IMG/VR virus record: IMGVR_UViG_3300013093_000087
Span: 1 to 43,855 of that record
Reading direction: 5' to 3' (one strand)
Length of the DNA: 43,855 bases
DNA from: a virus
The position numbers were made by a program, and so were the translations under genes. Shown one piece after another: positions 5,504 to 43,248 of this stretch. Each line of letters opens with the position of its first letter. Position 1 is the first letter of the stretch. The notes beneath the pieces were generated by a model. The model was not told where the DNA came from. It saw only the letters and a list, made by a program, of their open reading frames with translations, and made no database searches.

Positions 5504-8500
5504 ATGCCAAAGGTAACTATACCGGGGGTCGGGGTAGTAAATTATCCTGATTCTATGTCTGATAAAGACATTATGTCTCATGCTCAAGGGTTACAGACTA
5601 AAGCTAATACACCGTTGTTAGATCCAAAAGATTTACCCGCTAAAGAACTTTTTAAAGGTGCTTTTTCTCGGGGTATTGAAGGACTTAAAGGCACTGCATT
5701 TGATTTGATTCCAGCATTAGCGGGTTCTGTTACTGGGCATGACCAATACGCTCAAGAACAAATGAAGGAATATCAAGACCGTATGGCTGCGGCAGAAGCC
5801 GAAAATCCTACAGCGTATAATAAACTTTCAGATATTAAAGGTATTGGAGATTTACCGGGGTTTGTGGCAGAAACTGCCGGTATGTTGGCACCTGATGCAT
5901 TGTCTTTTATTGCTGGCACAGGCGTAGGTACAACGCTTGGTAAATATGCTGCTAGAAAAGGTGCAGAAAAAGTTCTTGAAAAAAGTGCTCTTGAGTATGC
6001 TGCTAAAAAAGGACTTACTGGTGAAGCTGCGGATACTGCTGTAGAAGCATTTAAAAACCGTGCAATAGGTCAAAATGTTATATCTAATGCTACTGAGCAT
6101 GGTGCAAGCATTGGTACAAATTTAGGATTAACTAGTACATCTATGGCTATTAATGTGCCGGATGTACTGCAAAGTGTATATCAAGATACTGGTGAATTAC
6201 ACCCCGGTATTGCTTTAACTGTTGGTCCAATTGTTGGTGCTTTAGATACTATATTTCCAGCCCATATTGTTAAACAACTTGGTAGTACAGGCAAAAAAAT
6301 ATTAGCCAAAGAGTTGTTAGATAAGTCTACTGTTGTACCTACAACTTGGAAAAAAGCGTTTGGTAAAGAGTTACTTAAAGACGTTAGCATGGAGTCTTTA
6401 ACTGAGGGTACGCAACAAGCTTTACAAGTAGCTGCATCACAGATGGCTGGAGATAAGAAAAAATTCTTTGATCCTAACAATATTGATAGCATTATTATGG
6501 CATCGATTCAAGGTGCTATTGGTGCTGGTAGTATGGGTGCTATTCCTTCGGCTATACAAGCTAAGGGTATCAAAGCACAATCAGAACAAGATGCAGCAGC
6601 ACAAAAAGCGCAAGCTGCTTTAGATGCACAAAAAGCACAACCTCCTGCACCTCCTCTTGCATTAGGATATACATCTCCTCCAGCAATGCAACAGGTAGAA
6701 ACCGACCAAAGTAAACGACCTATTGAAGTATCTCCCGGCATTACGTATGACCCAACTACAGGGCTACATACTATTCAACAACAAGAAGAACAGCCCGGTC
6801 GTACAGTAAATCCGTTAATGAATATGCCTCAACCTAACCCTGAGTTAGTTGGTCAAGGCGCACCTAATGTTGAGTTAAATCCAGCTCAACAAGAAATGTT
6901 TGATACTACTGCTTTTGAAAAAAGACAGCCTTCAATAGATTCAGCCCTTGCCGGCCCACCAGAAGCTCCAACCGAATTTAGTTCTAAGTTAGATGCAGAA
7001 ACTTTAAAAGGAACTGGTCTCAAACCACAGTCTGGTTTTTTTAAACAGCTTCTTGATAAAGATATGTCTAAGCCTAAACAGCAAGCTGCAGTAGCGGATA
7101 TTCTTATAAATGTAAGAAAAAACCCTAACTTATCAGATTCAACTAAAAATGCTGTTGAAGCCGTTGCTATGCAAGCTTTTGGCGCATTAGCTAAACAACA
7201 AGAAATGTTTACCCCACTAGGTAACGTAAGAAAGGATGCATCTTATGCAGGAGTCCAACCTACAGTTCAATCTAAACCTATCAGTACAACAAATAGAACA
7301 GGCATTCAAGTTCCTAACGAGTCGGTACCAAACCAACCCGCCGGAGGAGTTACAGCACCTCAACAACGACGAGTGGCTCCAGTTACAGAACCTACTGCTC
7401 AATCTGCAGTACGAGAAACAGTGCAACCTTCTGCATTAAGTCAAGAGGATCAAGATGCACTTCAAGCCGAACTTCAAGCTGAAATGGCAGGTCAACAACC
7501 TACGCAACAAATGGGAACGACTCCACAAGCAGCTACTACCCCTGCTCAAGAATCTATTGTTAGAACTAATCAAGGAATACCTCAAGTGGCTGGTGTGGCA
7601 CAGTCTCAACCTGTTGCTAAAACTTCCGCTACCCAAACGTTGGCACCAGCGCTTATTCCTCATTCTGCTAAAGATATATTAAAGCAAGCCGAACAAGAAA
7701 AAGCTCGTAGAGAGAAGTTAGCAGAAGAAGGTAATCCCGAGTTTCAAGAACTTGGTCGTGCTGGTACAGGTGAATTTGACGTAAGCAAAGGTTATATGGG
7801 CTTTGCTAAAGAAGATGTAAAAAACATTGACGATAGTATTGCAGTAACAGATTTGTTACGTGGTGCAACACTTACCCCTATAGCTAAAGCTGCTAAAACA
7901 TATTTTGGTAAGATGCCTCGCCTTGTTGATAATTTAATCAACGTTGCATTTGATATAGCTTTTAATCCACCACGTTTTAGAGTTGAAGGTGAAAGCAATA
8001 GAGAAGCTAAATTTTTCCAAGGTATGAATGGAGCTAGTGCTCGTCTTGCTGCGGATTGGATACATAAAAATTTAAGCCCAGATACAGATAAGCAGTTCCG
8101 TGACTTTATTCGTGGTTTTGAACGTGCACGTGATACGACTAATGATACTCAGTTAATGCAATTAATTATGTCTGGTGTATCTGGTACTAAGGCTAAAGTT
8201 ACCGATGAAACTATTCAAAGCTATATAGATGCTATGTCTGCCGATATTGCTAATGCTCGTAACCGTGAAGCTCGCCGTGCGGTATCAGGTAAAACCAAAA
8301 AGATTCTTGAAAGCTCAGTAATTACTTTAGCTCATCCACTTCACCCAGCAGTCATAGCAGCTATCCATAATGGTGATTTACAGTCTGCATTAAAACTAAT
8401 GGCTGCAAGCTCTGATCCTTTTATTGCTAAAACCGCAGCTCGTTTTGCTGCTGTTAATTTAAATACAAAGATTAATGTAGTTGATGGTTTAATTGATGAA

Positions 8501-11500
8501 TCTGGTCGTCCTGTTCCCGGTTTATTTCACCCAGAAACTAACACAATATTGATTGATTCCATTACCGGCATGAACGGGCATGTGCTTCTGCATGAACCTG
8601 GACATGCAGTAACATCTCATGTATTAGATAACCCTAATCATCCATTAACTCGTCAACTACAACAAGTTCTTGATAAAATTAAAGATAGCCTAGATACAGC
8701 TTATGGCGCTACTGACGTGCATGAGTTTGCTGCTGAAGCTTTGTCGAATCCACAATTTGTAGGGAAACTACAATCTATTAACCCTAATGGTGGAGTACAT
8801 ACAGCGTGGGATATGTTTGCCCGTGCAGTAATTAATTTCTTTCGTCGTATGGTTGGTTTAGAGTCTAGACCCTTAGCTTCTGCTTATGATGAAGTTGACC
8901 GTATTCTATCAGGCATCATTTCCCCATCTCCTGAGTATCGTGACGCAGGGGCACTATACGCCCCAACAATCGCTAAGGACCAACAAATTTTTACTGGAGT
9001 AAATAAATTAGTTAGAAGCGTTCCAGTTTTAAATGAAAATCAAAAAGCTCATCTTGCGGATGGTATTAAACGGGCTGGTAAATTAACTAGATCCGGCATC
9101 TTCTCTATGTTACCTACTCATGCTTTAGGTGAAGTAGCTGAAAGTGTATTTCCCGGACTTGGTATGAAGTTTCATAATTTAATCAATGATCGCTCAGGTT
9201 ATCAAAATGATTTAAACAATAAGACTGATGCTGTTGTTACTGAAGCTAAAGCAGCTATTAAGGCAAAACCAGAACAACAAAAAACTTTTAATGCCATTGC
9301 TAATGAGAGTACAGTCTACGAGGTTGACCCAACTAAACCTATGTCTGAATATAAAGATCCAGAGGACATTAAAGTTTGGAAAGATTTAAATAGCCGTTAC
9401 AACAAGCTCGATAAAGTTTGGAAAGACCTATACGTTACGATGCGTAACGCTTATAAAGAAATGTATGAGGAAGTTAAGAAATCTATTAACGAACGTATTG
9501 AAGAAACTGCTTTAGATGCAGGTACTAAAAAACGAGTTAGAGATGCCATTATGGCTAAGCTATCTGAAAAAGGTATGCTTGATCCTTATTTTGCTTTAGG
9601 TCGTGAAGGTGAACATTGGTTAGCATTTAACTATAAAGATAAAAATGGTCAAATGCAACGTACGCAAGAAGCGTACAAAACAGACTATGAACGTGCTGCT
9701 CGTATGGAAGAACTTCAAAAGCTAGGTGCTACAGAAGTTGAACCTTATGAAAAGGTTTCGGCAATGAACTACCGCCGTGCACCTACTGGTTCATTTATGA
9801 ATAGTATCTTACAGATTATGGATACTAACGGAGTACCAGAAAAAGCCGTTGAAGAAACTATGCGGTTATTCTTAGCTACATTGCCGGAAACAGCATTTGC
9901 CCAATCACTTCAAAAGCGTAAAGGCACTCCCGGTTACATGGACGATACTATTGGTGTCTTCGAGCGTAAGATGCGTAATACTGCGCACCAAGTAGCTAAC
10001 ATGCGGTTTAATCCCCAACTTACTAATGTAGTTGACGAAATGCAACAAAAAACAGTTGCAGCAGGTGTGGCTGGTAAAGGTAATCAACTTGAAAAAGATT
10101 ATGTAACTGAGTTTGAAAAACACTTGAAGTATGTACTAAATCCGACTAAACGGGATCTTGGTAGCATTCTTGCGTCAACTGCATTTACTTATACGCTTGG
10201 TTTTAATTTATCTTCCGCTGTAGTTAACATGGCTAACGTACCAATGATTGTAGCTCCTTATTTAAAGGGTCAATATGCTAGTTATAACGTAGCTGGTGCT
10301 ATTGGTAATGCTTCTAAGATTTTTATAGGTAGCGGCACAAATGCTGAAATGGAAGTGCTTGGTGCTAATGGTAGAACTACTAAAACTAAAGTAATGCCAT
10401 CTATTTTAAATTATGCAAAAGATTCGGCTATTGGTAGAAAGTACGCTAAGCTGATTGAAATTGCTAATAAACGTGGACAGTTAAACCGTTCGCAACTTTA
10501 TGAGTTAATTAATGGTGATACCCGTACAGGTTTACTATCTAAATTTAATGCTATGTCGGGTTGGATGTTTCATCATGGTGAACGGATGAATCGTGAAGTA
10601 ACTATGATTGCTTCATTTGATCTTGAAATGCAGAAGTTGGCTAAAGATATTAAGAGTGGTAAGTTAACTCAAGAAGAAGCTGAAACCCAAGCAGCTAACA
10701 ATGCTGTATATACTGCAGAACTTACCAATGGTAGTATTGCTGCAGCTTCGGCCCCACGTGTAGCTCAAAATCCAATAGGTAAGTTGTTATTCATGTATAA
10801 ACGCTATGGTGTTTCTATGTATTACATGATGTTTAAAACAGCTAAAGAAGCTATAGATGTTAATCTTCCAGCCGATCAACGTAAAGCCGCATGGAGACAA
10901 CTAGGTGGAATCGTAGGTATGTCTGCATTAATGGCAGGTGCTCAGGGTATTCCTTTATTTGGTTTAGCTTCAATGGTCTATGCTTTGTTCTGCGACGATG
11001 ATGATGACGATTTAGACAATGTTACCCGTAAAGGTCTAGGTGAGTTTCTTTATAAAGGTCCGTTAGAGTACTTTACCAACCTATCTATTGCTAGCCGTAT
11101 TACTTTAAATGACTTGATTGTGCGTGATACTAAAGGCGGTACATCAGCAACTACATTTACCCAGCAGATTGGTCAAGCTATGGGTGGTCCTGCATTTGGT
11201 ATTATGGATAGAATCCAGCGTGGCTATAGCAAAATAGCTGAAGGTCATCTTGAACGTGGTATTGAAGATATGTTACCTTCCGCTTTATCTAATCCACTTA
11301 AAGGATATCGTTACGCAACTGAAGGAACTAATACTCTACGTGGGGATCCAATCACTGGAGATATTAATGCGTGGAACGTTGCTGCTCAAGCATTTGGTTT
11401 TGCACCAGCAGACTATACACGTCAAATTGAACTTAATGCCAAAGAAAAAGGTGTTGATAAATATGTAGTTCAAAAGGTTTCTAAATTAAAACAACGTTAC

Positions 11501-11734
11501 AACTTAGCTCGTATCAATCACGATACTGAAGAAATGCAAAATATGCGAGAAAAGTTAGTTGACGTCGGTAATAAACACACAGGTCTTGGTATCAATGCTG
11601 GTACAGTTTCTGAAATACTTTCAAGGTCAAAAACTGAATTTGATAAAGCTACTAAAGAGATGGTGCATGGTGTCAGATACTCTAAAAAGATGCTAAAAGA
11701 GATTAAATCTGACTCTGCTGAATACGAAAATTGA
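5504..11734 (+). CDS. Giant internal virion protein with metallopeptidase motif (2076 aa)
   Basis: This is the largest gene in the window and the last of the plus-strand virion genes. The N-terminus (about 1-350) is mixed, with Gly/Ala segments. Residues about 370-720 are Gln/Pro-rich and low in complexity. A zinc-peptidase-like signature HEPGH lies at about 1030-1034 within HVLLHEPGHAV, and VHEFAAEALSNP about 40 residues downstream could provide the third ligand. The region from about 1540 to 1960 (RDLGSILASTAFTYTLGFNL, membrane-like segments and an acidic DDDDDD run) matches what I know of large polyvalent-protein domain 38 (LPD38) in phage ejection proteins. A role in genome delivery is likely; peptidase activity is untested. 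Confidence 0.7.
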   Translation: MPKVTIPGVGVVNYPDSMSDKDIMSHAQGLQTKANTPLLDPKDLPAKELFKGAFSRGIEGLKGTAFDLIPALAGSVTGHDQYAQEQMKEYQDRMAAAEAENPTAYNKLSDIKGIGDLPGFVAETAGMLAPDALSFIAGTGVGTTLGKYAARKGAEKVLEKSALEYAAKKGLTGEAADTAVEAFKNRAIGQNVISNATEHGASIGTNLGLTSTSMAINVPDVLQSVYQDTGELHPGIALTVGPIVGALDTIFPAHIVKQLGSTGKKILAKELLDKSTVVPTTWKKAFGKELLKDVSMESLTEGTQQALQVAASQMAGDKKKFFDPNNIDSIIMASIQGAIGAGSMGAIPSAIQAKGIKAQSEQDAAAQKAQAALDAQKAQPPAPPLALGYTSPPAMQQVETDQSKRPIEVSPGITYDPTTGLHTIQQQEEQPGRTVNPLMNMPQPNPELVGQGAPNVELNPAQQEMFDTTAFEKRQPSIDSALAGPPEAPTEFSSKLDAETLKGTGLKPQSGFFKQLLDKDMSKPKQQAAVADILINVRKNPNLSDSTKNAVEAVAMQAFGALAKQQEMFTPLGNVRKDASYAGVQPTVQSKPISTTNRTGIQVPNESVPNQPAGGVTAPQQRRVAPVTEPTAQSAVRETVQPSALSQEDQDALQAELQAEMAGQQPTQQMGTTPQAATTPAQESIVRTNQGIPQVAGVAQSQPVAKTSATQTLAPALIPHSAKDILKQAEQEKARREKLAEEGNPEFQELGRAGTGEFDVSKGYMGFAKEDVKNIDDSIAVTDLLRGATLTPIAKAAKTYFGKMPRLVDNLINVAFDIAFNPPRFRVEGESNREAKFFQGMNGASARLAADWIHKNLSPDTDKQFRDFIRGFERARDTTNDTQLMQLIMSGVSGTKAKVTDETIQSYIDAMSADIANARNREARRAVSGKTKKILESSVITLAHPLHPAVIAAIHNGDLQSALKLMAASSDPFIAKTAARFAAVNLNTKINVVDGLIDESGRPVPGLFHPETNTILIDSITGMNGHVLLHEPGHAVTSHVLDNPNHPLTRQLQQVLDKIKDSLDTAYGATDVHEFAAEALSNPQFVGKLQSINPNGGVHTAWDMFARAVINFFRRMVGLESRPLASAYDEVDRILSGIISPSPEYRDAGALYAPTIAKDQQIFTGVNKLVRSVPVLNENQKAHLADGIKRAGKLTRSGIFSMLPTHALGEVAESVFPGLGMKFHNLINDRSGYQNDLNNKTDAVVTEAKAAIKAKPEQQKTFNAIANESTVYEVDPTKPMSEYKDPEDIKVWKDLNSRYNKLDKVWKDLYVTMRNAYKEMYEEVKKSINERIEETALDAGTKKRVRDAIMAKLSEKGMLDPYFALGREGEHWLAFNYKDKNGQMQRTQEAYKTDYERAARMEELQKLGATEVEPYEKVSAMNYRRAPTGSFMNSILQIMDTNGVPEKAVEETMRLFLATLPETAFAQSLQKRKGTPGYMDDTIGVFERKMRNTAHQVANMRFNPQLTNVVDEMQQKTVAAGVAGKGNQLEKDYVTEFEKHLKYVLNPTKRDLGSILASTAFTYTLGFNLSSAVVNMANVPMIVAPYLKGQYASYNVAGAIGNASKIFIGSGTNAEMEVLGANGRTTKTKVMPSILNYAKDSAIGRKYAKLIEIANKRGQLNRSQLYELINGDTRTGLLSKFNAMSGWMFHHGERMNREVTMIASFDLEMQKLAKDIKSGKLTQEEAETQAANNAVYTAELTNGSIAAASAPRVAQNPIGKLLFMYKRYGVSMYYMMFKTAKEAIDVNLPADQRKAAWRQLGGIVGMSALMAGAQGIPLFGLASMVYALFCDDDDDDLDNVTRKGLGEFLYKGPLEYFTNLSIASRITLNDLIVRDTKGGTSATTFTQQIGQAMGGPAFGIMDRIQRGYSKIAEGHLERGIEDMLPSALSNPLKGYRYATEGTNTLRGDPITGDINAWNVAAQAFGFAPADYTRQIELNAKEKGVDKYVVQKVSKLKQRYNLARINHDTEEMQNMREKLVDVGNKHTGLGINAGTVSEILSRSKTEFDKATKEMVHGVRYSKKMLKEIKSDSAEYEN

Positions 11735-18892: not shown

Positions 18893-19561
18893 TTAGTTCC
18901 TTCCATTATGAGCGCACTCTAATACTGGGCAATACTTCTTACATAACCCACTTGGTCTAGGATTCCATACATTATTGGCATAGGAAAACTTCATCCGATT
19001 ATGTTCTGCAATCCATTTAACCCACATCTTATCCTGTTTTTCAGCATCATACGAATCTTTTATGAAGTTCTTAGAAATAACAAAAAGAAGCCCACCTTTG
19101 ACCTTTTTGACTTCGGGAAAAAACTTAAAAATAGCTAGTGCCATTAGTTCCAGTTGGTCAGTATCGGCATACTTAGCCGATTTGCCAGTCTTATAGTCTA
19201 CGCAACGTGCTTCATCCCCATTGATAATCAACAAGTCAGCAATACCTCGCCACCAAACCTTTGGGTCTTTGAATCCGCAGGGTTCTAGGTTTTCTGTCAA
19301 CCCCATTTCAAACTCACAATGTTTTATACCCTCTAGTTGTTTTAAACTATCTAATGTAGATTTAACAAAACTAAACTGTGGAGGTATTGGTACGTCATCC
19401 CGTACGTAATGTTCAGCTGCCGAATGAAACTCTTTACCATATAAGATAGCATCTGTTGGTGGCTCGGTTACATCTTTAGCTACACGTAAGTGGTAAAACT
19501 TTTTAGGGCATTGGTCGTATAGCTTAATGCTAGAGTATGACCATGCAGGTATCTTAGTCAA
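18893..19561 (-). CDS. Cas4/RecB-like PD-(D/E)XK nuclease
   Basis: The 222-residue protein opens with WSYSSIKLYDQCPKKFYHLR (8-27), the usual start of PD-(D/E)XK exonucleases of the Cas4/RecB group. GIADLLII and then CVDYKTGK (about 115-136) give the catalytic D...DxK. C-terminal cysteines (CKKYCPVLEC) together with C18 could hold an iron-sulfur cluster. The start is TTG at 19561, inside TTGACTAA, using GAGGTGG just upstream; that binding site is the 3' end of the preceding mini-gene. No CRISPR array is seen, so a role in phage recombination or DNA end processing is more likely. Confidence 0.8.
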   Translation of the reverse strand: MTKIPAWSYSSIKLYDQCPKKFYHLRVAKDVTEPPTDAILYGKEFHSAAEHYVRDDVPIPPQFSFVKSTLDSLKQLEGIKHCEFEMGLTENLEPCGFKDPKVWWRGIADLLIINGDEARCVDYKTGKSAKYADTDQLELMALAIFKFFPEVKKVKGGLLFVISKNFIKDSYDAEKQDKMWVKWIAEHNRMKFSYANNVWNPRPSGLCKKYCPVLECAHNGRN

Positions 19562-19718
19562 AGTCCACCTCTATTTCATAATCTTTTTGTTGGTTTAAAA
19601 TTTGTTGCGCTAAAGACTCAAGATAGGGTGGCACAATAAGTTTAGTAGGTTTAGTAGGTTTAGAAACCAAATCTATAAATATTATCTCAAGTGAAGATTC
19701 ATTTAACTCGCTATTCAT
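19554..19718 (-). CDS. Mini-gene ending in EVDFD (54 aa)
   Basis: A 54-residue protein, MNSELNESSLEII at the start and DYEIEVDFD at the end, with a TKPTKP repeat at about 21-26. It begins in the junction GAGGTGGACTTTGATGA, whose GAGGTGG is a ribosome binding site and also encodes the C-terminus of the gene before. Its own end supplies the binding site of the Cas4-like nuclease in the same way. The function is unknown. It is the last of four consecutive mini-genes sharing this junction. Confidence 0.6.
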   Translation of the reverse strand: MNSELNESSLEIIFIDLVSKPTKPTKLIVPPYLESLAQQILNQQKDYEIEVDFD

Positions 19719-19881
19719 CAAAGTCCACCTCTACTATGTAACTAGGTTTATTCGCATCTCTAAATGCGCCGCTAAGTATTCGCCCTATTATTGCTTCTTT
19801 AGTCTGCTCCATTGCTTCCGCTAAATGTTGAGTATATCGCTTGCGCATTTCTTCATGCACCTTCGGGTCTATCGTGTCCAT
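19711..19881 (-). CDS. Mini-gene ending in YIVEVDFDE (56 aa)
   Basis: A 56-residue, mostly helical protein (MDTIDPKVHEEMRKRYTQHL at the N-terminus). Its last nine residues YIVEVDFDE are identical to a segment of the gene at 19998-20171. The start lies inside the 3' end of the preceding gene, in GGTAGATTTTGATG; the stop overlaps the next start by 8 nt. No known domain is visible. Confidence 0.6.
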   Translation of the reverse strand: MDTIDPKVHEEMRKRYTQHLAEAMEQTKEAIIGRILSGAFRDANKPSYIVEVDFDE

Positions 19882-20038
19882 CAAAATCTACCTTTGTTAT
19901 GTATGGTTCATCTACAAAAATTTCACCAGCAAACTTTTTAGTTTTTGGCATGTTAGCAAGTTGAGTTGCATACTCTTCTGCTGTTATTCCAAGTTTCTTA
20001 GCTAAGTTCATTTGTACTGCACTTATTCTTATCTTCAT
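19853..20038 (-). CDS. Mini-gene with AKKLG motif and KVDFD end (61 aa)
   Basis: The start is ATG 20038 (MKIRISAVQMNLAKKLGITA). The segment AKKLGITAEEYATQL (14-28) resembles AKKLGLTNEQYVREL at the C-terminus of the scaffold protein at 41844-42794. Near its end it carries YITKVDFDGHDR, a variant of the shared VDFD junction peptide. It starts inside the preceding mini-gene, using GGAGGT as binding site. The function is unknown; the shared segment may bind a common partner or be a small helical module. Confidence 0.6.
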   Translation of the reverse strand: MKIRISAVQMNLAKKLGITAEEYATQLANMPKTKKFAGEIFVDEPYITKVDFDGHDRPEGA

Positions 20039-20171
20039 CAAAATCTACCTCCACTATATAGTCTTCTTTATTAAATATTTCAGCACCAAATTTACTGTAC
20101 TCAAGGTCAAATAGCGCATTAAGTCCGGGTAATAGTTCTTTCAATAAGTCTTTTCTAGATATCATTATCAT
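19998..20171 (-). CDS. Mini-gene with ELLPGLNALF motif (57 aa)
   Basis: A 57-residue protein. SRKDLLKELLPGLNALFDLE (5-24) resembles a short helical motif found in small phage proteins of unknown role. YIVEVDFDE follows at 38-46, then a tail of 11 residues that overlaps the next gene by 41 nt. The start ATG 20171 overlaps the stop of the preceding gene. It is the first of the four VDFD-junction genes. Confidence 0.6.
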   Translation of the reverse strand: MIMISRKDLLKELLPGLNALFDLEYSKFGAEIFNKEDYIVEVDFDEDKNKCSTNELS

Positions 20172-20470
20172 TTAACTCCATGATACTTTTCAACCCACCT
20201 AGCAAAGTCCTTGCCTTTGCCAATACTAATCCAAGCTTTCTTTAATGTTTCATCAGGTATTGGTTTAGATTGAACAGCACAACGTTTCTCTACCTTTTTT
20301 GTAGCTTCATAAGTAGCGGCACTTCTACATACGTACCATGCACTTTTCCATGCTTGCCACATAGGATCAGAGTTAATGTCTTCATTTTCGTTGTCAATCC
20401 AATGGTTATTCATAGCCCATCGTAAAAAAGACGCTAAACACTTAGCATCGGGTGAACCTTTAGCGTTCAT
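20168..20470 (-). CDS. Hypothetical Trp-rich protein (100 aa)
   Basis: A basic 100-residue protein with ten Trp or Cys residues (FLRWAMNNHWIDNE, MWQAWKSAWYVCRSAA). It starts with ATGAAC directly after the repeated junction GGCACAAGAGAA. I do not recognise a domain. It links the EPVAW cassette upstream with the VDFD cassette downstream. Confidence 0.65.
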   Translation of the reverse strand: MNAKGSPDAKCLASFLRWAMNNHWIDNENEDINSDPMWQAWKSAWYVCRSAATYEATKKVEKRCAVQSKPIPDETLKKAWISIGKGKDFARWVEKYHGVK

Positions 20471-20700
20471 TTCTCTTGTGCCTTTCTTAGTATTGCTCTA
20501 GCAAATTCAAGTTCAGGCTGTCCACTCCAATCCATCTCCGCCCATAAATCTTGTATTTCCTCATCTGTTAGTGTCTTTGCTGGATGGGTGTAGAGTGGAA
20601 TGTTGTAATCAGAACAATCACCACCTTTACCTGATTTCTTAAATTTATCTGTAATAACATCATCATCTTTACACATCCACGCTACTGGTTCATTGTTCAT
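20467..20700 (-). CDS. EPVAW/YTHPAK family small protein, paralog 3
   Basis: A 77-residue member of a phage family of unknown function. MNNEPVAWM opens the protein, IPLYTHPAKTLTDEEI (about 34-49) is the central motif, and FARAILRKAQEK closes it. The variable part between the ends contains CKDDD and GGDC. Two further copies lie at 20873-21130 and 21127-21366. The 3' end encodes KAQEK and carries the start of the next gene in an ATGA overlap. Confidence 0.75.
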   Translation of the reverse strand: MNNEPVAWMCKDDDVITDKFKKSGKGGDCSDYNIPLYTHPAKTLTDEEIQDLWAEMDWSGQPELEFARAILRKAQEK

Positions 20701-20876
20701 TTCTCTTGTGCCTTTAAAAATTTAAAAGTTAAGCCAAAACACTTGTAAACATTGATGTAACCATTTCTTTCGCTAAACAATGGCTGATGGTGCTTTGTTT
20801 GTTTTACCCATAAGCCATAGCCAAAAAATCTAAACCAAAATCCATGACCAATATTGCAGTAATAAAAAGGTTTCAT
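20697..20876 (-). CDS. Small aromatic protein with PLFSERNG motif (59 aa)
   Basis: MKPFYYCNIGHGFWFRFFGY leads into LWVK, then PLFSERNGY (32-40), a motif I know from small phage proteins of unknown role. It sits between two EPVAW paralogs and is not related to them, yet it ends in the same KAQEK encoded by the same junction GGCACAAGAGAAATGA. The strong aromatic content suggests membrane association or a compact beta fold. Confidence 0.65.
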   Translation of the reverse strand: MKPFYYCNIGHGFWFRFFGYGLWVKQTKHHQPLFSERNGYINVYKCFGLTFKFLKAQEK

Positions 20877-21130
20877 TTCTCTTGTGCCTTTCTTAGTATT
20901 TCGTATGCAAACTCAGTAAATTTAATTTCATCTACCTGACCATTTTTATCTAATTCGTAATACTTTCCAGCCGCCCATACTGCATGAATTTCTCCTATGC
21001 TAAGTTTCTTTGCTGGATGGGTGTAGAGTGGAATACAAGGTTGTTTAATATCAAAAGATATGTTTAATGCTGCACCCAAGCTAGTAAAAAGCACACCATC
21101 TACCATCCATGCTACTGGTTCATTGTTCAT
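20873..21130 (-). CDS. EPVAW/YTHPAK family small protein, paralog 2
   Basis: An 85-residue paralog with MNNEPVAWM, IPLYTHPAKKLSIGEI and EILRKAQEK. The middle (VDGVLFTSLGAALNISFDI) differs from the other copies, so only the ends and the YTHPAK motif are conserved. ATGA overlaps are present on both sides. Confidence 0.75.
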   Translation of the reverse strand: MNNEPVAWMVDGVLFTSLGAALNISFDIKQPCIPLYTHPAKKLSIGEIHAVWAAGKYYELDKNGQVDEIKFTEFAYEILRKAQEK

Positions 21131-21366
21131 TTATCCTGTGCCTTTCTTAGTATTGCTCTAGCAAAAGCCTTTTGTTTCATCCAAGGTGTGTTGCCATGCG
21201 AATGACTCCAGCAATAATCTATTTCCTCATCTGTTAGTGTCTTTGCTGGATTGGTATAGAGTGGAATCCATGTGCCTTCAAGATGGTCAATCACTTGTAA
21301 ATTAATTAACTTTGGCTTTCGGTCTTCCAAGCCCAACAACATCCATGCTACTGGTTCATTGTTCAT
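21127..21366 (-). CDS. EPVAW/YTHPAK family small protein, paralog 1
   Basis: A 79-residue paralog with MNNEPVAWM, IPLYTNPAKTLTDEEI and FARAILRKAQDK. It is first in the cassette after the DNA polymerase gene. Its start overlaps the 13-codon remnant ORF at 21356-21397. The function of the family is unknown. Confidence 0.75.
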   Translation of the reverse strand: MNNEPVAWMLLGLEDRKPKLINLQVIDHLEGTWIPLYTNPAKTLTDEEIDYCWSHSHGNTPWMKQKAFARAILRKAQDK

Positions 21367-21397
21367 TTGTAATCCCAGCTAGTTCATTTGCGTTCAT
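21356..21397 (-). pseudogene. 13-codon remnant ORF of a MNANEL-type gene
   Basis: ATG in a TAATG overlap with the polymerase stop reads MNANELAGITNEQ and then stops. The first six residues match the usual start of a small phage family (MNANELAD...). The rest seems lost, and the frame runs into the ATGAACAATGAACC start of the first EPVAW paralog. It may be a leftover from recombination or a tiny coupling ORF. Confidence 0.35.
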
Positions 21398-23229
21398 TAG
21401 CAGTCTCCATATGATTTACCAAACCCACTCTCACAGTTAACAGGTAATCCATCAGCCCACTCCGGTGTCCAACGCATACAATCTTCAATATATGCTTGGG
21501 CTTCTTCAACTTCTGTTTCCGGCACAATACAAGCAACGGCATCATGCACAGTCAGTACTACCCTGTAACGCTTAGCTATACGAATCATCTGCTCACCAAT
21601 AATGCAACGTGCCAATGCTTGGCAAACATTCTCAATAACTTTACCACCATAAATCTTATTCCAACCATAACGGGTCTTATACTGATATTGAGTTTTACCA
21701 TCTTCTTTGACTGAAACTAGCTGGTCATAACGCATTAACAAGCCGCTTGGTAAACGTATTCCACGCTCCTCTGGGGCCAGATTCAATACACCATTTTTAC
21801 CCAAAGATGTTGTCATACCCTTAGCCATTGCTTCAAGCGCTATCTGGGCTTCTCGCCATAGCGCAGTAATGTACGGATATGTTTCTCTGTAAATCGTGAT
21901 GATATGACGGGCTTCATCTTCCGTAACTTCCACATCGAAAGTCTTAAGCTGTGCTTTGAATTTCTGAGCCCCCATGCCGTAGCCACATCCGAGAATTGTA
22001 GTCTTGCCGACGAATCTTTCCTCTTTTGTAATTTCATCTGCACTCTTACCATATATAGCCGAAGCCATGATCTTGTATACATCCTCGTGCCTTTCAAACG
22101 CTTCAACCAAATCATTCTGCCCCGCCAACCATGCCAACACACGTGCCTCAATTTGACTTGAATCGGCATCAATAATCATGTAGCCCTCGGGTGCAATGAT
22201 GGCTTTTTTTAGCTTACCTGCATTATCTCCACGACTAGGCAAGTTCTGCAAGTTCAAGCTATCGCTACCACCCCACCGCCCTGTATGAGCCGCATAATAT
22301 TTAATAGGAACTGGCATCAAACCACGTTTAGAGATTCCAATAAATCGTTCAGTCCTAGTTTCTTCTAAAGTAGATTTAGCCCCAAGGCGAGCCGCTACTA
22401 AAGCCTGTACTCTTACATCAGGATGTTCAGACAAAATCTTAAACTCCTCGTCGTTCTTAGCTAACGCAAGGGCTTCTTTACCTGTCTTCAAACTAGTCTT
22501 CATCGGTGGCACAACACCAAGTAACTTTAATAGTTCAGCAAACTTCTGATTGCTCATTAGTTCTTCACGGCTAGTAATACCAGCTTCTATTAACAACTTA
22601 GCTTTTGCCGCCCTTACTGTGTCATAGTGCTGTTCAAGTAAAGTTAAATCTAAATCTAATTTCGGTTCAATAAACATACGTAGAGTAAGATCAATCAACT
22701 TCATCTCACCTTTAGGAAATCCATTTTTAACCATAGCATTAAATAGCTTATAGGTTAACTCCACATCATTAACACAATAATCACCATATCTATTAAGTTC
22801 TTCTTCGGTAAAGTCCACACGATTCTTCCCGGATGCGGCGATGACTTCATCACCCTTAACTCCTAGTTTGTATCTTTCAGTTAGTGCCGCAAGCGATGCA
22901 CTTGATTCAACACCATGAATCCCTCGACCCATGCACATCGTATCGGCATATGCTTTAGCGGTAATACCAAACTTCTCAGACATAATGAAGCCATCAAACA
23001 TACAGTTATGAGCAAGCATCATTGACTCTTTCCAAGGAAAAGTCTTAAGGTAATCCGCTATTTGTTTGTGCGTACCACTCGCCCACTCAGTCTCACCACC
23101 ATTAACCTTAATGGCTACACCGATTACTTCAAAACGGTCACTACGTACATACTCTTCAGTTGTCATCTTAGACAGACTAAAGCTAGACTTCTCATAGAAA
23201 GTCTCAAAGTCAATCGTTATTAGATTCAC
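21397..23229 (-). CDS. DNA polymerase, family A, with 3'-5' exonuclease
   Basis: The 610-residue replicative polymerase shows exonuclease motifs Exo I DFET (7-10), Exo II HNCMFD (74-79) and Exo III YCVND (151-155). The polymerase part has motif A DADSSQIEARVLAWLAG (354-370), motif B RFVGKTTILGCGYG (405-418) and motif C VHD (561-563). No 5' nuclease domain is present, as usual for phage enzymes. The start is GTG 23229 with GAGGAG about 8 nt upstream, inside the end of the preceding small gene. It probably works with the primase-helicase and SSB encoded downstream. Confidence 0.95.
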   Translation of the reverse strand: MNLITIDFETFYEKSSFSLSKMTTEEYVRSDRFEVIGVAIKVNGGETEWASGTHKQIADYLKTFPWKESMMLAHNCMFDGFIMSEKFGITAKAYADTMCMGRGIHGVESSASLAALTERYKLGVKGDEVIAASGKNRVDFTEEELNRYGDYCVNDVELTYKLFNAMVKNGFPKGEMKLIDLTLRMFIEPKLDLDLTLLEQHYDTVRAAKAKLLIEAGITSREELMSNQKFAELLKLLGVVPPMKTSLKTGKEALALAKNDEEFKILSEHPDVRVQALVAARLGAKSTLEETRTERFIGISKRGLMPVPIKYYAAHTGRWGGSDSLNLQNLPSRGDNAGKLKKAIIAPEGYMIIDADSSQIEARVLAWLAGQNDLVEAFERHEDVYKIMASAIYGKSADEITKEERFVGKTTILGCGYGMGAQKFKAQLKTFDVEVTEDEARHIITIYRETYPYITALWREAQIALEAMAKGMTTSLGKNGVLNLAPEERGIRLPSGLLMRYDQLVSVKEDGKTQYQYKTRYGWNKIYGGKVIENVCQALARCIIGEQMIRIAKRYRVVLTVHDAVACIVPETEVEEAQAYIEDCMRWTPEWADGLPVNCESGFGKSYGDC

Positions 23230-24545: not shown

Positions 24546-25310
24546 TTATATTCCTTTTAAAATGTTGGGGTTAATCTCCCCTATATTATCCAAGTTCCTG
24601 CCTGCATAGTCATTATTTAGTAGAACATGTTGCATTGTGGCAATCCTTGCACTCCTCTTGCAGTCTGACTTAACTACTATCCAAGGGTTATCCTCTGATG
24701 TGTATTTAAGTATGCTCCGTTCTGCATGGGTATATTCATCCCACTTATCCTGACTTACCCTATCAATCGGGGATAACTTACCTAATTTCAAAGGGTTGCT
24801 TTCCCTTTCTTTAAACCGCCGTTCCTGCTCTTTTTTACTAACGTCTAACCAAAACTTAATAAGGCATATGCCACTTTCTTGCCACATCTCTTCCATTGTG
24901 TAACATTGGCTATAGAAAATAGCAACCTCGTCGGTTGTGGCAAAACCCATGACTCTCTCAACAGTTGCTCGGTTATACCAAGACCTATCCCATAGGGTAA
25001 CTTCTCCTGTACGTGGTAGTTCCTTGATAAACCGTTGCCAATACCATTGCATACGTTCTTGCTCGGTAGGTTTGTCCAATGCTACGACTCGGGCGGACTT
25101 TGGATTCATATGTTCCATAAATCGTTTAATCGTACCGCCCTTGCCTGCACCATCTCGTCCCTCAAAAACCACCATATGCTTCTGACCAGTATCTTTGACG
25201 TGGTGTTGCCACTTCAATAGTTCTACTTGCAAAGCATACTTCTTAGTATCAAATTCCTTTTGGGACATAAGATTCCTAGGTGATTCCTCGGTTTGATCAA
25301 TCGTGCTCAC
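24546..25310 (-). CDS. ppk2: Polyphosphate kinase 2 family (PPK2) enzyme
   Basis: PPK2 enzymes transfer phosphate between polyphosphate and nucleotides. All family signatures are visible: Walker A FEGRDGAGKGGTIKR (49-63), Walker B LWDRSWYNRATVERVMGF (106-123), and the lid RFKERESNP (165-173) followed by GKLSPIDRVSQDKWDEY (177-193). The length of 254 fits a one-domain PPK2. The lid has LGKLSP where WKLSP is more usual. The start is GTG 25310 in an overlap with the upstream gene, with AGAGGG before it; ATG at residue 15 is an alternative. Direction and nucleotide preference cannot be read from sequence. It is an unusual phage gene. Confidence 0.9.
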   Translation of the reverse strand: MSTIDQTEESPRNLMSQKEFDTKKYALQVELLKWQHHVKDTGQKHMVVFEGRDGAGKGGTIKRFMEHMNPKSARVVALDKPTEQERMQWYWQRFIKELPRTGEVTLWDRSWYNRATVERVMGFATTDEVAIFYSQCYTMEEMWQESGICLIKFWLDVSKKEQERRFKERESNPLKLGKLSPIDRVSQDKWDEYTHAERSILKYTSEDNPWIVVKSDCKRSARIATMQHVLLNNDYAGRNLDNIGEINPNILKGI

Positions 25311-29317: not shown

Positions 29318-30505
29318 TTAGTTCTCCTCAATATGTACAGTCACACCAACATCTGCGTTGGCACTCTTATTACCTTGAATACACCACAACACAGGCACAG
29401 TCCACCGACCCCATGACCCACCCAAATAGCCATCTGTTAACACAACAACACACTCGGGCTTGATGCCATGCTCGTTCATATACATCGGCACACACTCGAC
29501 GTTAGTACCACCGCCCCCTGCAGGCTTGGTAGACTTCACCAAATCATCAAGTTCATCTTGCATATAAACTTCTTCCTTACATACGTCCGTGTCCCAATAC
29601 AACATACGAACCTTGCTCGGCTTAACCTGATCACAGATACCTTTGACCTCTGTTAAGAACTTCATCAGTTCATGCTGACCAATCGAACCCGACGTATCTA
29701 TGGCTATGACAATCTCACCGATTGATTCACTAATGCTTGACGGCATTAACATATCCATACCCACATATCTACGGTTAGGTTTGCGCCATGTAGAGTAGTC
29801 TTTACCTGCACAAGTTGTTGTCACAAAGTCACGTAGTAACTCTTTCCAATCTTTCTTGGTTTGCAATAACTCACTAATATCACGTAACCCACCAGTACCC
29901 ATCTTGCCTGCCATGATTGCGCCTTGCCTTACAGCTTCATCAATATCTTTGGCTAACTCCTCAGCTTCTTCGGCAGATAACGCTTGAGCACCCTCCCAGT
30001 CATGGTCATCGAAACCAGTGCCCTCACCCAAACCTTGACCTTTACCTTTTCCATTACTAGGTGGTAGTAAGTCAAAGACTTGTTTAGAGTCCATGCCTGC
30101 ATACTTGAGATCCATCAGCCCACCATCGGGCATTCGTATCCACCCACTCCTACATGCATCGGTATCTGTTAACTTGTGATTGATTACATAGTCACATGCT
30201 TGGTTGGCCCGTTCATGATCTAAGTCATGCAGATACTTCCATGTAGTCAAGTGTCGATACATCTTGTGATAACACTCATGCAACATTAAGAATCTAAACT
30301 CAGCGTCATTCAAAGAGTCAACAAACTCCCGACCATACTTCTCGTCACGTCCGTTGGTACATGCAGTTGGTAGTCCGTCGACTACTTCTTTGTTGCCAAT
30401 CATGAGCACCCCTGCAAGGGCGACGAACTCTTCCCGACCTACGATGTCAGTCGTAGCCTTCATAAGTCGTTGCTCTGCAGTTAATGGTTTACCTATTGCT
30501 AACAT
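29318..30505 (-). CDS. vWA-domain protein with metallopeptidase-like N-terminus
   Basis: The C-terminal domain has the MIDAS motif DTSGSIG (270-276) followed by TDGY, typical of vWA domains that pair with MoxR AAA+ proteins (DUF2201 / vWA-like type). The N-terminal part has LHECYH (75-80), an HExxH zinc-peptidase-like signature. An acidic linker lies at about 165-195. It is directly downstream of the MoxR ATPase gene. Such pairs act as metal-dependent chaperone or remodelling machines; the phage target is unknown. Binding site AAGGAGAAA. Confidence 0.85.
   Translation of the reverse strand: MLAIGKPLTAEQRLMKATTDIVGREEFVALAGVLMIGNKEVVDGLPTACTNGRDEKYGREFVDSLNDAEFRFLMLHECYHKMYRHLTTWKYLHDLDHERANQACDYVINHKLTDTDACRSGWIRMPDGGLMDLKYAGMDSKQVFDLLPPSNGKGKGQGLGEGTGFDDHDWEGAQALSAEEAEELAKDIDEAVRQGAIMAGKMGTGGLRDISELLQTKKDWKELLRDFVTTTCAGKDYSTWRKPNRRYVGMDMLMPSSISESIGEIVIAIDTSGSIGQHELMKFLTEVKGICDQVKPSKVRMLYWDTDVCKEEVYMQDELDDLVKSTKPAGGGGTNVECVPMYMNEHGIKPECVVVLTDGYLGGSWGRWTVPVLWCIQGNKSANADVGVTVHIEEN
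30369..30386. repeat. Stem-loop repeat copy, CGTC loop
   Basis: GGTAGTC-CGTC-GACTACT has the constant stem and a different loop. It lies in the vWA gene where the protein reads VVDGLP, a region that looks conserved in the protein family, so coding constraint may explain part of it. Confidence 0.6.
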
Positions 30506-30516
30506 AATGTTTCTCC

Positions 30517-31632
30517 TTATTTTTTATCTGCGCTAAACATGAAGTTGTTGTCCATGCACCATTGAGTAAACTTCTTATTACCCATGACCATAGACTGACG
30601 TTGATACTTCGGATTGCGTACCTGCATAGCGAATAGACCTTGTGCTTCTTTATCTAAACGATTGAGGTATTCCATCCAAGGATCAATGAACTCTTTGTTC
30701 ATAGTCGCAAGCGCACGATACACAACCATGACAATGCCTGATGCGGATTGCGGGATCTTGGCAGTTGACGGACTCGTCTTAATATCTTCCTGTCTTGGCA
30801 GTTGATCGACCAGATCAATATAGGCTTCAAGGTCAGCACCACCACGAGCACCGATAGTACCCATGAGATTAGACTTCAATGCGTTCTTGCTCATCTTGTC
30901 CTTAGCCCATAACCAATGACTTGCTAACTCAAGACTGCGTGGTGTCACGAATGACGGACGTTGTGACTTCGGATGATAGATATAAGGGTTACCACCTATA
31001 TCATCGTCAGGCTTCTCGATCTCTTCATAAGATTGAAAGAGTTGTTCACCATGTTCTTTGACCCACATAATCATGGCAGGATTTATTCCTGCGTTGATAG
31101 CAAAGCCCTCGATCCACTCGGTAGCCGTTGGCTTCTTCATACGTATGACTGTGATGCGATTGCGGTGGTGTGGCATAAGTAAGTCACCGACCCCCTCTGT
31201 TCCTAGGTTAGTGGTGGCAAACACGATAGACCCTTCGGGTAACTTCTTAGTACCAAAGGTACGTTCTAACATTACACGCATCATGCCATTCTTGACTGAT
31301 GGATTCGCCTTACCAAACTCATCAATCATTAAGATGATTGGCTTGTCGTGGTGTAGACCCATCTCTTCGTTAGGTACAAAGCGTACAAAGTCCTCGGTAC
31401 TGTCGTCACGCAAGATCTTGGGCAACATCAAATCGCCTAAGTCCTTGGTAGTGCAGTCAAAATAGCAAGGCACGTGAGTTGGTAACTTCTGTGCCAACAC
31501 CTTAAGGATTGAGGATTTACCTGTACCCATGTGACCTTGAACCAAGGTAGTCAGCCGACTACCAGTAGCGAGGATTGAATCGACGCACTCGTCGAGGGAT
31601 TGTGCGAATAACTGCTCTGCTGATTGTTTCAT
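30517..31632 (-). CDS. MoxR-type AAA+ ATPase
   Basis: The 371-residue protein has Walker A GHMGTGKS (33-40), Walker B ILMIDE (100-105) and sensor 1 ATTN (139-142). Arg residues at HHRNR (155-159) could serve as arginine finger. The layout matches MoxR/AAA_5 ATPases that work with vWA partners, and the vWA gene follows after 11 nt. ACAGGAGAAT is the binding site. GSRLTT at 24-29, just before the P-loop strand, is encoded by a stem-loop repeat (31546-31563). Confidence 0.88.
   Translation of the reverse strand: MKQSAEQLFAQSLDECVDSILATGSRLTTLVQGHMGTGKSSILKVLAQKLPTHVPCYFDCTTKDLGDLMLPKILRDDSTEDFVRFVPNEEMGLHHDKPIILMIDEFGKANPSVKNGMMRVMLERTFGTKKLPEGSIVFATTNLGTEGVGDLLMPHHRNRITVIRMKKPTATEWIEGFAINAGINPAMIMWVKEHGEQLFQSYEEIEKPDDDIGGNPYIYHPKSQRPSFVTPRSLELASHWLWAKDKMSKNALKSNLMGTIGARGGADLEAYIDLVDQLPRQEDIKTSPSTAKIPQSASGIVMVVYRALATMNKEFIDPWMEYLNRLDKEAQGLFAMQVRNPKYQRQSMVMGNKKFTQWCMDNNFMFSADKK
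31546..31563. repeat. Stem-loop repeat copy, inverted orientation
   Basis: GGTAGTC-AGCC-GACTACC has a perfect 7-bp stem; the loop is the reverse complement of GGCT. It lies near the 5' end of the MoxR gene, encoding GSRLTT. Confidence 0.9.
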
Positions 31633-40986: not shown

Positions 40987-41386
40987 ACTAAACCTTAGCC
41001 AAGCAGTGGACTTATCTGCTGTGCTAAACAAAGAAGCAGAAGATAGAGCAAAACAGCTACCTATGCCACAAGGGTATCGTATTTTATGTGCAATCCCTGA
41101 AGCAGAAGAAGCGTTTGAAAGTGGAATTATCAAGTCGGATGAAACACGCCGTGTTGATGAACTTTTAACTACAGTGCTTTTTGTGGTCTCTTTAGGCCCA
41201 GATTGCTATGCAGATAAAGTAAGGTTCCCTAATGGACCTTGGTGTAAACAAGGTGATTTTATCCTTGTAAGACCAAATGCAGGTACCCGTCTGGTAATTC
41301 ACGACCGTGAGTTCCGGATTATTAACGATGACTCTGTGGAAGCCGTCGTGCAGGATCCGAGGGGAATTAAGCGTAAATTCATATGA
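40979..41386 (+). CDS. GroES-like co-chaperonin fold protein
   Basis: The 135-residue protein contains PQGYRILCAIPEAEE (29-43), a gap with KSDETRRVDELLTT, then VVSLGPDC, GDFILVRPNAGT and IHDREFRIINDDSVEAVVQD. This order of strands parallels Cpn10/GroES (PLxDRVLV...G.V..VG.G......GD.V.......G......Y.I...DILA). Phage co-chaperonins help the host GroEL fold capsid protein, and its place in the head operon fits. The mobile-loop IVL motif is not obvious. Confidence 0.7.
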   Translation: MSELNLSQAVDLSAVLNKEAEDRAKQLPMPQGYRILCAIPEAEEAFESGIIKSDETRRVDELLTTVLFVVSLGPDCYADKVRFPNGPWCKQGDFILVRPNAGTRLVIHDREFRIINDDSVEAVVQDPRGIKRKFI

Positions 41387-41832
41387 GAACTGAAGCTCAA
41401 AAAGAATCTCGCCGTAAGTACGAGGCTAGCGCAAAAGGTAAAGCTGCTAAGCAACGCCACGAAGCTGCTTATAAAGCATCTGGTGGAAGAGCCAAAGCAG
41501 AAGAACGTCGTAAAGAAGTTCCTTTATCCCCCGCTAGAAAAGCAGCAAGAATAAAGTGGGCCAAAGCAAATAAGGACTATTTCACAGTAAATAGATCTTT
41601 TAGAAGATCTTTAGAACGTGATTTATCTGAGTTTGATAGGTTTGTTTTATTAGAAGCAGTTTCTTTAGCAAGATTACGTGAACATATAGTTGGCGGTAAG
41701 TGGCATGTTGACCATATTATTCCCGTATCTAAAGGTGGTACAAACACCGCTAATAATCTGCAAGTAGTACCCGCTGAATGGAATAGACGCAAATCTAATA
41801 TCCATACACAGCAATTTTTTAACATTATTTAA
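41383..41832 (+). CDS. HNH endonuclease
   Basis: The C-terminal HNH core reads WHVDHIIPVSKGGTNTANNL, then NRRKSN (residues about 107-139), with H-D-H, N and the final N. The N-terminal 70 residues are very basic with alternating Lys/Arg and Ala and probably bind DNA. Cys pairs are lacking. It sits inside the head operon with an ATGA overlap. HNH proteins near terminase can assist packaging, but a position between the GroES-like and scaffold genes is also typical of a free-standing mobile endonuclease. Confidence 0.85.
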   Translation: MRTEAQKESRRKYEASAKGKAAKQRHEAAYKASGGRAKAEERRKEVPLSPARKAARIKWAKANKDYFTVNRSFRRSLERDLSEFDRFVLLEAVSLARLREHIVGGKWHVDHIIPVSKGGTNTANNLQVVPAEWNRRKSNIHTQQFFNII

Positions 41833-41843
41833 GGAGGCGGACA

Positions 41844-42794
41844 ATGCCAGATGCATACCAATTTCCCGATGAAATCGAGGATATTAAGGGTAAACCCCTA
41901 GAAGAATTAGAGATTGAGATCGAGGATGATACCCCCGAAGAAGATCGAAACCGTAAACCTGCTGACCCCGAAAAGGTTAGGCAACTAGAAGTTGACGTCG
42001 ATGACTTAGATAAGTACAGCAAAGAAGCTAAAGATAAGCTTATTAAGATGAAGCGAGTCTGGAATGATGAGCGACGTGCCCGAGAAGCTGCAGAACGAGA
42101 GCGAAATGCTGCTATTGAAGCTGCTCAAAGGCTATTAGCTGAAAACAATCAGGTCAAAAAGATGCTTTCTAGTGGTGAAAAAGACTACAAGAATACTAAA
42201 AAAGACTCTGCTAAGCTGCAATTAAAAAATGCTAAAAAGGCTTATAAAGAAGCTTATGAAGCTGGCGATGCTGAAAAAGTAATGAATGCGCAAGCCGCTA
42301 TTACTAAAGCGCAATTAAATTTAGAAAAAGCAAAAGATTTTAAGTTGCCCCCTTTACAGCAAGAACAATTTGTTGTACAACCTCAACAAGACTACCAAAA
42401 TGTACCAAGAGACGAAAAGCTCGAATCTTGGCAATCGGAAAATCCTTGGTTCGGACAGGACGAGGAAATGACGGCAGCGGCTCTGGGACTCCATGAGAAG
42501 CTAAAACGTCAAGGTGTACAAATTGGGTCAGAGGAATATTACGCAACGTTGGACCAAACAATGCGAAAAAGATTTGCAGAAAATTTCGACCATGAAGATT
42601 CTGAAGATCAAGAAGTACGGGCAAAACCACGAGCAGACACGCACAGGGTAAAGCCATCAACGGTAGTAGCTTCGGCAACTCGGTCGACCGCACCGAAAAG
42701 AGTTAGGTTATCCCAGTCGCAAGTTGCGATTGCAAAAAAACTTGGCTTAACCAATGAGCAATATGTCCGTGAACTAATGAAAGTGGAGGCCTGA
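41844..42794 (+). CDS. Capsid assembly scaffold protein
   Basis: The 316-residue acidic, strongly helical protein has a coiled coil at about 50-170 (RVWNDERRAREAAERERNAA and following). The middle is Gln-rich, then WQSENPWFGQDEEMTAAALG (about 197-216), a block typical of podovirus scaffolds. The basic C-terminus ends in QSQVAIAKKLGLTNEQYVRE, a helix-turn-helix-like end such as those that bind coat protein. AAGGAGG lies at 41831-41837. The AKKLG segment recurs in a mini-gene at 19853-20038. Confidence 0.75.
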   Translation: MPDAYQFPDEIEDIKGKPLEELEIEIEDDTPEEDRNRKPADPEKVRQLEVDVDDLDKYSKEAKDKLIKMKRVWNDERRAREAAERERNAAIEAAQRLLAENNQVKKMLSSGEKDYKNTKKDSAKLQLKNAKKAYKEAYEAGDAEKVMNAQAAITKAQLNLEKAKDFKLPPLQQEQFVVQPQQDYQNVPRDEKLESWQSENPWFGQDEEMTAAALGLHEKLKRQGVQIGSEEYYATLDQTMRKRFAENFDHEDSEDQEVRAKPRADTHRVKPSTVVASATRSTAPKRVRLSQSQVAIAKKLGLTNEQYVRELMKVEA

Positions 42795-42795
42795 C

Positions 42796-43248
42796 ATGGC
42801 TACAAATAGACTTAATCGTGAAGCAGAAAACCGTGAAATTACAGAACGTCCTAAACAGTGGATGCCACCTGAACTTTTACCTGAGCCCGACAAGCAGGCT
42901 GGTTTCGCTTATCGTTGGATACGTGTTTCAATGCTTAATCAAGCTGACCCCCGTAATACTTCTGCTAAGTTTAGAGAAGGTTGGGAGCCAGTAAGTATTG
43001 AAGAACAACCAAAATTTAAACTGTTAGCTAATCCCAATGGTCAATTTAAAGACAACGTTGAGATTGGCGGGTTACTACTCTGCAAAATCCCAGAGGAACT
43101 TGTGGCACAACGTGCAGCTTATGAGGCTAAACAGACACAAGACCAATCGGAAGCTGTAGATAACAACCTAATGCGCCAAAGTGATTCGAGAATGCCAATC
43201 TTTATGGAACGGAAATCCTCGGTGACCTTTGGATCTGGTTCTCAATAA
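42796..43248 (+). CDS. Head-associated structural protein (150 aa)
   Basis: AYRWIRVSMLNQADPRNTSA, then KFREGWEPVSIEEQPKFKLL (about 39-77), is a block common in small head proteins encoded between scaffold and capsid in aquatic phages. Its exact role is not known. It starts 1 nt after the scaffold stop and is followed 13 nt later by the last gene. Confidence 0.65.
   Translation: MATNRLNREAENREITERPKQWMPPELLPEPDKQAGFAYRWIRVSMLNQADPRNTSAKFREGWEPVSIEEQPKFKLLANPNGQFKDNVEIGGLLLCKIPEELVAQRAAYEAKQTQDQSEAVDNNLMRQSDSRMPIFMERKSSVTFGSGSQ

Follow-up and report, generated by a model that had tools for sequence, protein, structure and literature searches.

The mini-gene string and its surroundings

The window, by which we mean the whole stretch of 43,855 nt that was analysed, belongs to a water-borne bacterial virus and carries, adjoining its DNA-copying genes, a string of four mini-genes on the minus strand. 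From first to last, these are mini-gene 4 (19998..20171), mini-gene 3 (19853..20038), mini-gene 2 (19711..19881) and mini-gene 1 (19554..19718); all four open reading frames are present where an earlier note on this DNA had placed them. The string occupies a cargo slot that is limited upstream by a DNA polymerase gene (21397..23229, minus strand), homologous to the polymerase found 5′ of the nuclease in 70+ loci, and downstream by a gene for a RecB-like PD-(D/E)XK nuclease (18893..19561, minus strand; PF12705, E = 7.1e-15; phrog_69 exonuclease, E = 7.9e-22). The earlier note had the last junction of the string driving a Cas4-like nuclease from a TTG. The TTG junction and the nuclease are there, but the Cas4 identity was rejected: the best Pfam match is PF12705 (PDDEXK_1), and no Cas4 model matched at E up to 1. 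Searching genome contigs with the nuclease for a candidate host returned no relative.

Polymerase, nuclease, a SNF2-type helicase, primase and the mini-gene string together form a minus-strand, replication-side unit, and the head genes lie on the plus strand. There, the portal, GroES-like, scaffold-like and phrog_36003 genes follow the order of annotated Pam1-like phages. The scaffold-like protein (41844..42794, plus strand; phrog_28737, E = 7.5e-32) is encoded between the GroES-like gene and the head genes, and the phrog_36003 head-region protein (42796..43248, plus strand; E = 2.6e-33) comes directly after it. The window ends inside the gene that precedes the major capsid protein (MCP) gene, which itself lies beyond the window; we read the missing MCP from contig L162, which encodes a scaffold-like protein 100% identical to the window's.

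Several other features were recorded. The replication-side region encodes a polyphosphate kinase 2 (24546..25310, minus strand; PF03976, E = 4e-82), and adjoining genes for an AAA ATPase and a DUF2201/VWA-like metallopeptidase-domain protein form a MoxR/VWA-like pair (29318..31632, minus strand). A 2076-aa protein (5504..11734, plus strand) contains a large polyvalent protein domain (LPD39, E = 3e-13). Directly after the MCP gene, L162 has a 194-aa gene that by eye resembles a GIY-YIG endonuclease (8330..8914 of L162, plus strand), and the window has an HNH-like gene at 41383..41832; the two are possible homing elements beside head genes.

A junction that is peptide, ribosome site and start signal

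The mini-genes are joined by a 27-nt direct repeat within their coding sequence, present in four copies that are 78–85% identical to the reference copy and spaced 157–163 nt from start to start. The copy at 20034..20060 comprises tail codons, GAGGT and the ATG of mini-gene 3; the copy at 19877..19903 comprises tail codons, AAGGT and the ATG of mini-gene 2; the copies at 19714..19740 and 19554..19580 both combine tail codons with GAGGT, followed by the ATG of mini-gene 1 and the TTG of the nuclease, respectively (all minus strand). Every copy encodes VDFD, and the next start lies 10–13 nt past the first base of the EV/KV codon. A 17-nt junction core, allowing up to three mismatches, matches four times in the window compared to 0.55 expected, a count reached in 0 of 100 shuffles. 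The earlier description of the junction as a shared peptide, a ribosome binding site and the next start in one is thus borne out. Its placement of VDFD at or near the gene ends fits mini-genes 1 and 2, where the motif is terminal or almost so; in mini-genes 3 and 4, a further 8 and 13 residues follow, respectively, and both frames continue into the next gene.

The same arrangement recurs in 36 distinct tail-bearing mini-genes from the window and its relatives, which have the tail consensus [YHW]xx(E/K)V(D/N)F. A further open frame begins at the junction in all 36 cases; for most, its start is an ATG lying +13/14, or a TTG lying +10, from the Glu/Lys codon. Of 34 Glu codons in EV, 30 are GAG, compared to a GAG share of 29% in the long genes of the window (binomial P about 7e-13). 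Such a bias is expected if GAGGT acts as a ribosome site within the codons of the tail, and it favours that reading. Since the tail codons hold the ribosome site and overlap the next start, translation of the string is probably coupled as far as the nuclease.

A translation signal is only part of what is conserved. The tail Asp (GAC/GAT) and Phe (TTT/TTC) codons vary synonymously and Phe is never replaced (36/36, a partly circular count because the search motif admitted only Phe or Tyr there), which indicates that the tail is kept as a peptide as well. Nor does every nuclease start region include the tail: in relatives without mini-genes the preceding gene ends differently and has no EVDFD. 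In L125 (1489..1935), and likewise in L127 and L129, a 146- to 148-aa gene that has no relation to the mini-genes carries AEVNFD at its end and forms a similar junction at the nuclease start; its sequence gives the impression that another gene was fused to the junction there.

Just upstream is another string of small genes (20467..21366, minus strand), made up of MNNEPVAWM...IPLYTHPAK...ILRKAQEK paralogues. One member (20697..20876) has an unrelated body with the same KAQEK-ATGA ending, so that the window has two instances of a shared junction with different bodies. The window, L121, L122 and L123 differ from one another in this block.

Single modules are gained or lost at the junction

We found three independent pairs of sequences that differ by exactly one mini-gene at a junction. 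The window and L123 differ by precisely mini-gene 1, which L123 does not have, a 160-bp difference that runs between two TAGAGGTGGACTTTGA copies (upstream edge at the junction copy 19714..19740, downstream edge at 19554..19580), while the sequences outside these 160 bp have only 6 mismatches in 1040 aligned bp. L244 has one mini-gene, of 163 bp, more than L252, and L368 and L278 differ by one 172-bp mini-gene, with 42 mismatches in 1004. Because the junctions are direct repeats of at least 16 bp, recombination between them can remove or add a whole module and leave its neighbours unharmed. These differences support the modular interpretation and supply the exchange in related phages that the earlier note had proposed, although its picture of tiny genes being freely added or swapped is incomplete: the bodies are mostly fragments of capsid-morphogenesis proteins rather than arbitrary cargo. 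One short sequence can in this way act simultaneously as peptide, ribosome site, start signal and recombination site.

The bodies are fragments of capsid-morphogenesis proteins

We compared the mini-gene bodies with the phage's own proteins by profile and pairwise alignment. The body of mini-gene 4 is the MCP N-terminus (aa 1–35), followed by the tail YIVEVDFD (profile E = 4.1e-11; pairwise alignment over aa 3–47, score 113 compared to a shuffle maximum of 49). In a tblastn search of the mini-genes against 50,697 phage records, its first 30–47 residues matched annotated MCPs of the Pam1-like phages HTVC023P, Pag-Yong1 and DSL-LC04 (E = 4e-6 to 0.01). Mini-gene 2 corresponds to about MCP residues 92–130, followed by YIVEVDFDE (profile E = 1.7e-6; pairwise over 92–130, score 64 compared to a shuffle maximum of 53); its tblastn matches were weak, two of them falling in MCPs (E = 0.3 and 6). 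Mini-gene 1 corresponds to about MCP residues 163–212 (LNESSLE...TKLIVPP), followed by YEIEVDFD (profile E = 4.4e-4, pairwise over 163–212, score 62 compared to a shuffle maximum of 46), a P-class match that is weak taken alone (E = 4e-4). Mini-gene 3 begins with about 29 aa of the scaffold-like C-terminus (profile positions 291–319 of 321, E = 5.4e-8; pairwise to residues 286–311 of the 316-aa protein, score 67 compared to a shuffle maximum of 51) and continues with a mini-gene-4-like segment and the tail YITKVDFD. These alignments assign three of the four bodies to separate segments of the MCP and the remaining one, that of mini-gene 3, to the scaffold-like C-terminus.

A tandem array of full-length homologues, which the earlier note had named as the finding that would overturn its reading, was ruled out: body-only scores among the four mini-genes fall within those of shuffles, with the exception of mini-genes 4 and 3 (P = 0.03), so that the junction is repeated and the bodies differ, as that note had held. 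Mini-genes 4 and 3 have in common about 20 aa upstream of the tail, within a 58-nt match of 71% identity. This pattern suggests that mini-gene 3 arose by recombination inside genes, joining a scaffold-derived first half to a mini-gene-4-like second half. We also ruled out a functional HK97-fold major capsid protein, as each product spans only about 23–60 of the 302 MCP positions and has no complete set of shell-forming domains.

The structural labels of the fragments rest on analogy, because the AlphaFold2 model of the MCP has a pLDDT of 32 and a usable prediction, a single helix at residues 6–43 with a mean pLDDT of 72.6, was obtained only for mini-gene 2. The MCP profile found no match among PDB chains. 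By analogy with HK97-fold MCPs, the middle segment (mini-gene 2) probably corresponds to the spine helix, and the 163–212 segment to the P-domain region.

The same capsid regions recur across one phage clade

The MCP profile was run on 38,023 ORFs from 321 sequences. The short ORFs that it matched at E below about 0.05 were either MCPs cut by a contig end or mini-genes between polymerase and nuclease. We then tested 66 profiles made from window and L162 ORFs on the 36 distinct tail-bearing mini-genes and on 1800 shuffles. At a threshold of E < 0.05, the MCP profile matches 26 of the 36 (E = 5e-15 to 0.003) and 5 of the 1800 shuffles, leaving 10 mini-genes with no MCP match at this threshold. 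The phrog_36003 profile matches 4 of the 36 (E = 0.004–0.03) and 4 of the 1800 shuffles; a DPRMP(I/V)F motif in relatives' mini-genes resembles the conserved phrog_36003 C-terminus RMP(I/L)F (...RMPIFMERK...). It is mainly by this motif that phrog_36003 is a probable, but less certain, source of a mini-gene segment. Only MCP, scaffold and, weakly, phrog_36003 rise above the shuffles; matches to the other profiles are few and at shuffle level.

Three MCP regions recur in different phages, the N-terminal (1 to about 40), the middle (73–134) and residues 160–216, and their order varies. In L284, which has the P-class fragment first and the N-class fragment last, six consecutive tail-bearing mini-genes (7796..8841) include P-, M- and N-class MCP fragments and several bodies with no assigned source. 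Among the weaker pairwise comparisons are L284_8188 with phrog_36003 (z = 1.1) and the first mini-gene of L124 with MCP (z = 2.8). By eye, L284_8022 seemed to match the protein encoded before the MCP, but this match was dropped after pairwise alignment gave z = 0.0.

About 28 contigs, all from one Pam1-like phage clade, carry mini-genes, always between the DNA polymerase and the PD-(D/E)XK nuclease. Mini-genes and tails are confined to loci whose polymerase is at least 74% identical to that of the window and are patchy among these: of 37 distinct loci, about 22 have them, including 3 with the EVNFD-ending 146- to 148-aa gene in place of mini-genes. Loci with a more distant polymerase (<74% identity) have no tails or mini-genes, and polymerase and nuclease abut in several. 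An intact MCP and a fragment mini-gene occur together in G033, a 65-kb record. The five named Pam1-like genomes each have an intact MCP, one MCP match and no fragment, and G014 (61 kb) and G021 (66 kb) likewise have one MCP match each and no fragment elsewhere. In IMG/VR, the 17-nt degenerate junction pattern was found in at least 119 stretches, likely by chance. A 23-nt tail pattern gave 13 matches, 10 of them in contigs already known for mini-genes or nuclease, and it added two new contigs from the same family, L368 and L369. A scan with the M-class profile returned only contigs already known; L368, found via the tail patterns, adds one M-class gene.

The constant site between a DNA polymerase and a nuclease raises another explanation, in which capsid shards were raw material for small proteins that now act in DNA metabolism, for example with the tail binding polymerase or nuclease, and have lost any capsid link. 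A tail kept at the peptide level is what a common partner would produce. However, residues conserved in the MCP are retained in the fragments, as three separate MCP regions and the scaffold C-terminus have been: I3, R5, L8, L9, P14, L19, F20 and Y24 are invariant in an alignment of the N-class fragments and the MCP. We consider such a new function unlikely.

Probable purifying selection on the mini-gene products

We counted synonymous and nonsynonymous differences by a Nei–Gojobori-type method; with 20–67 codons and synonymous sites near saturation, the counts support conservation rather than a precise estimate. For the pooled N and M classes, pS is 0.68–0.73 and pN is 0.30–0.37. The close pairs L278/L283 and L244/L252 (M class) both have a pN of 0.07, with a pS of 0.48 and 0.32, respectively. 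For the N class of L244/L252, pN and pS are about equal (0.20/0.22), possibly due to the 3′ part overlapping the next gene, and the ratio for the P class (three sequences) is 0.61. Because the protein sequence is kept while synonymous sites approach saturation, it is probable that the mini-genes are translated and that purifying selection acts on their products.

This conservation bears on a simpler account, that the bodies are debris of late genes upstream of the nuclease, kept only as a translation start for the next gene. Patchy presence and easily lost modules would agree with it, and so would the unrelated gene of L125, L127 and L129, whose similar EVNFD junction means that the junction alone can be kept. 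But debris would not be expected to conserve its protein against near-saturated synonymous change or to consist of the same MCP regions in different phages, and we judge this account quite improbable. That the mini-gene bodies are conserved pieces of capsid-morphogenesis proteins of this phage is, in our view, highly likely.

A proposed role in mimicking capsid-assembly interfaces

The clean differences of one module at a time, together with fragments of the virus's own shell, suggest from sequence comparison that the virus uses mimics of that shell. The P22 scaffold binds the coat N-arm through its C-terminus (PMC9962691), and the adjacent mini-genes 4 and 3 carry the MCP N-terminus and the scaffold C-terminus, the two segments that bind there. 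The best explanation as a whole, a string of capsid-fragment genes with shared-tail junctions that mimic assembly interfaces, stands in our judgement evenly poised between right and wrong. The string would be expressed early from the replication-side transcription unit, before the capsid, which is plausible because it lies in the minus-strand unit opposite to the plus-strand head genes. Its products would then mimic capsid-assembly interfaces and compete for the copied MCP–MCP or MCP–scaffold contacts, and this competition could delay premature assembly or poison the assembly of a co-infecting relative. Alternatively, the mimics could target a host receptor that recognises the capsid protein. 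The mechanism of assembly-interface mimicry is itself put forward tentatively, as a serious possibility short of even confidence. An assembly poison would also strike the capsid of the phage that makes it, barring protection by timing or divergence, because the MCP N-terminus is nearly invariant within the family.

MCP acts as the trigger for several bacterial systems: CapRelSJ46 makes contact with the spine helix and the beta-sheet of the MCP P-domain (PMC9712102), the Gol peptide of the T4 MCP activates Lit (PMC9712102), and in staphylococci the major head protein is what Thoeris detects (PMC11312562). The fragments could thus be immune decoys, non-activating mimics of MCP epitopes that are made before the real MCP, occupy the host sensor and avert abortive infection. 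The M and P fragment classes are probably MCP regions of the sensed kind, and the position of the mini-genes in the replication-side transcription unit, opposite to the head genes, would suit such timing. A decoy role alone leaves the scaffold C-terminus fragment and the common tail unexplained, and we regard it as doubtful. Based on the parallels with P22, CapRelSJ46 and Thoeris, we rank mimicry of assembly interfaces first, immune decoys second, an unrelated new function third and debris last.

A broader proposal, possible but held with more reserve than the mechanism above, is that a lytic clade keeps a swappable arsenal of capsid mimics, made before the capsid, that would neutralise capsid-sensing immunity or sabotage the assembly of competitors, the junction allowing modules to be exchanged in frame between phages, each with its own ribosome site. 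If the products do act as mimics, the string would represent a modular route from pieces of a phage's own structural proteins to small regulatory or offensive proteins, and capsid-sensing immunity, phage–phage competition and the origin of new small genes would become linked.

Comparison with known systems

Gene arrays of MCP and scaffold fragments have no precedent in the open-access literature that we searched, and the nearest systems each match one aspect. The C-terminal coat-binding region of the P22 scaffold and the coat N-arm are the same two interface segments as those in mini-genes 3 and 4; however, in P22 they are parts of full-length proteins, whereas here they are separate genes, known from sequence and likened by segment rather than by homology to P22.

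Phage satellites encode small capsid-remodelling proteins (PMC10945586). TcaP of PLE and Sid of P4 are likewise small and encoded away from head genes, and they act on the capsid protein; they are satellite-encoded scaffolds, whereas the mini-gene bodies are pieces from capsid-protein families of the phage itself. Tab, a tail-assembly blocker encoded by a prophage (PMC10884400), offers a proposed parallel as a phage-encoded product that blocks the virion assembly of another phage. Unlike the mini-gene products, Tab targets tails, is prophage-borne, is paired with an anti-Tab protein and does not belong to a set of capsid fragments.

Finally, the Gol peptide, which activates Lit, and the MCP triggers of CapRel are parallels in that a short MCP segment can be biologically effective alone. 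Gol is a region within the MCP and triggers defence, whereas the segments described here are separate, conserved genes.
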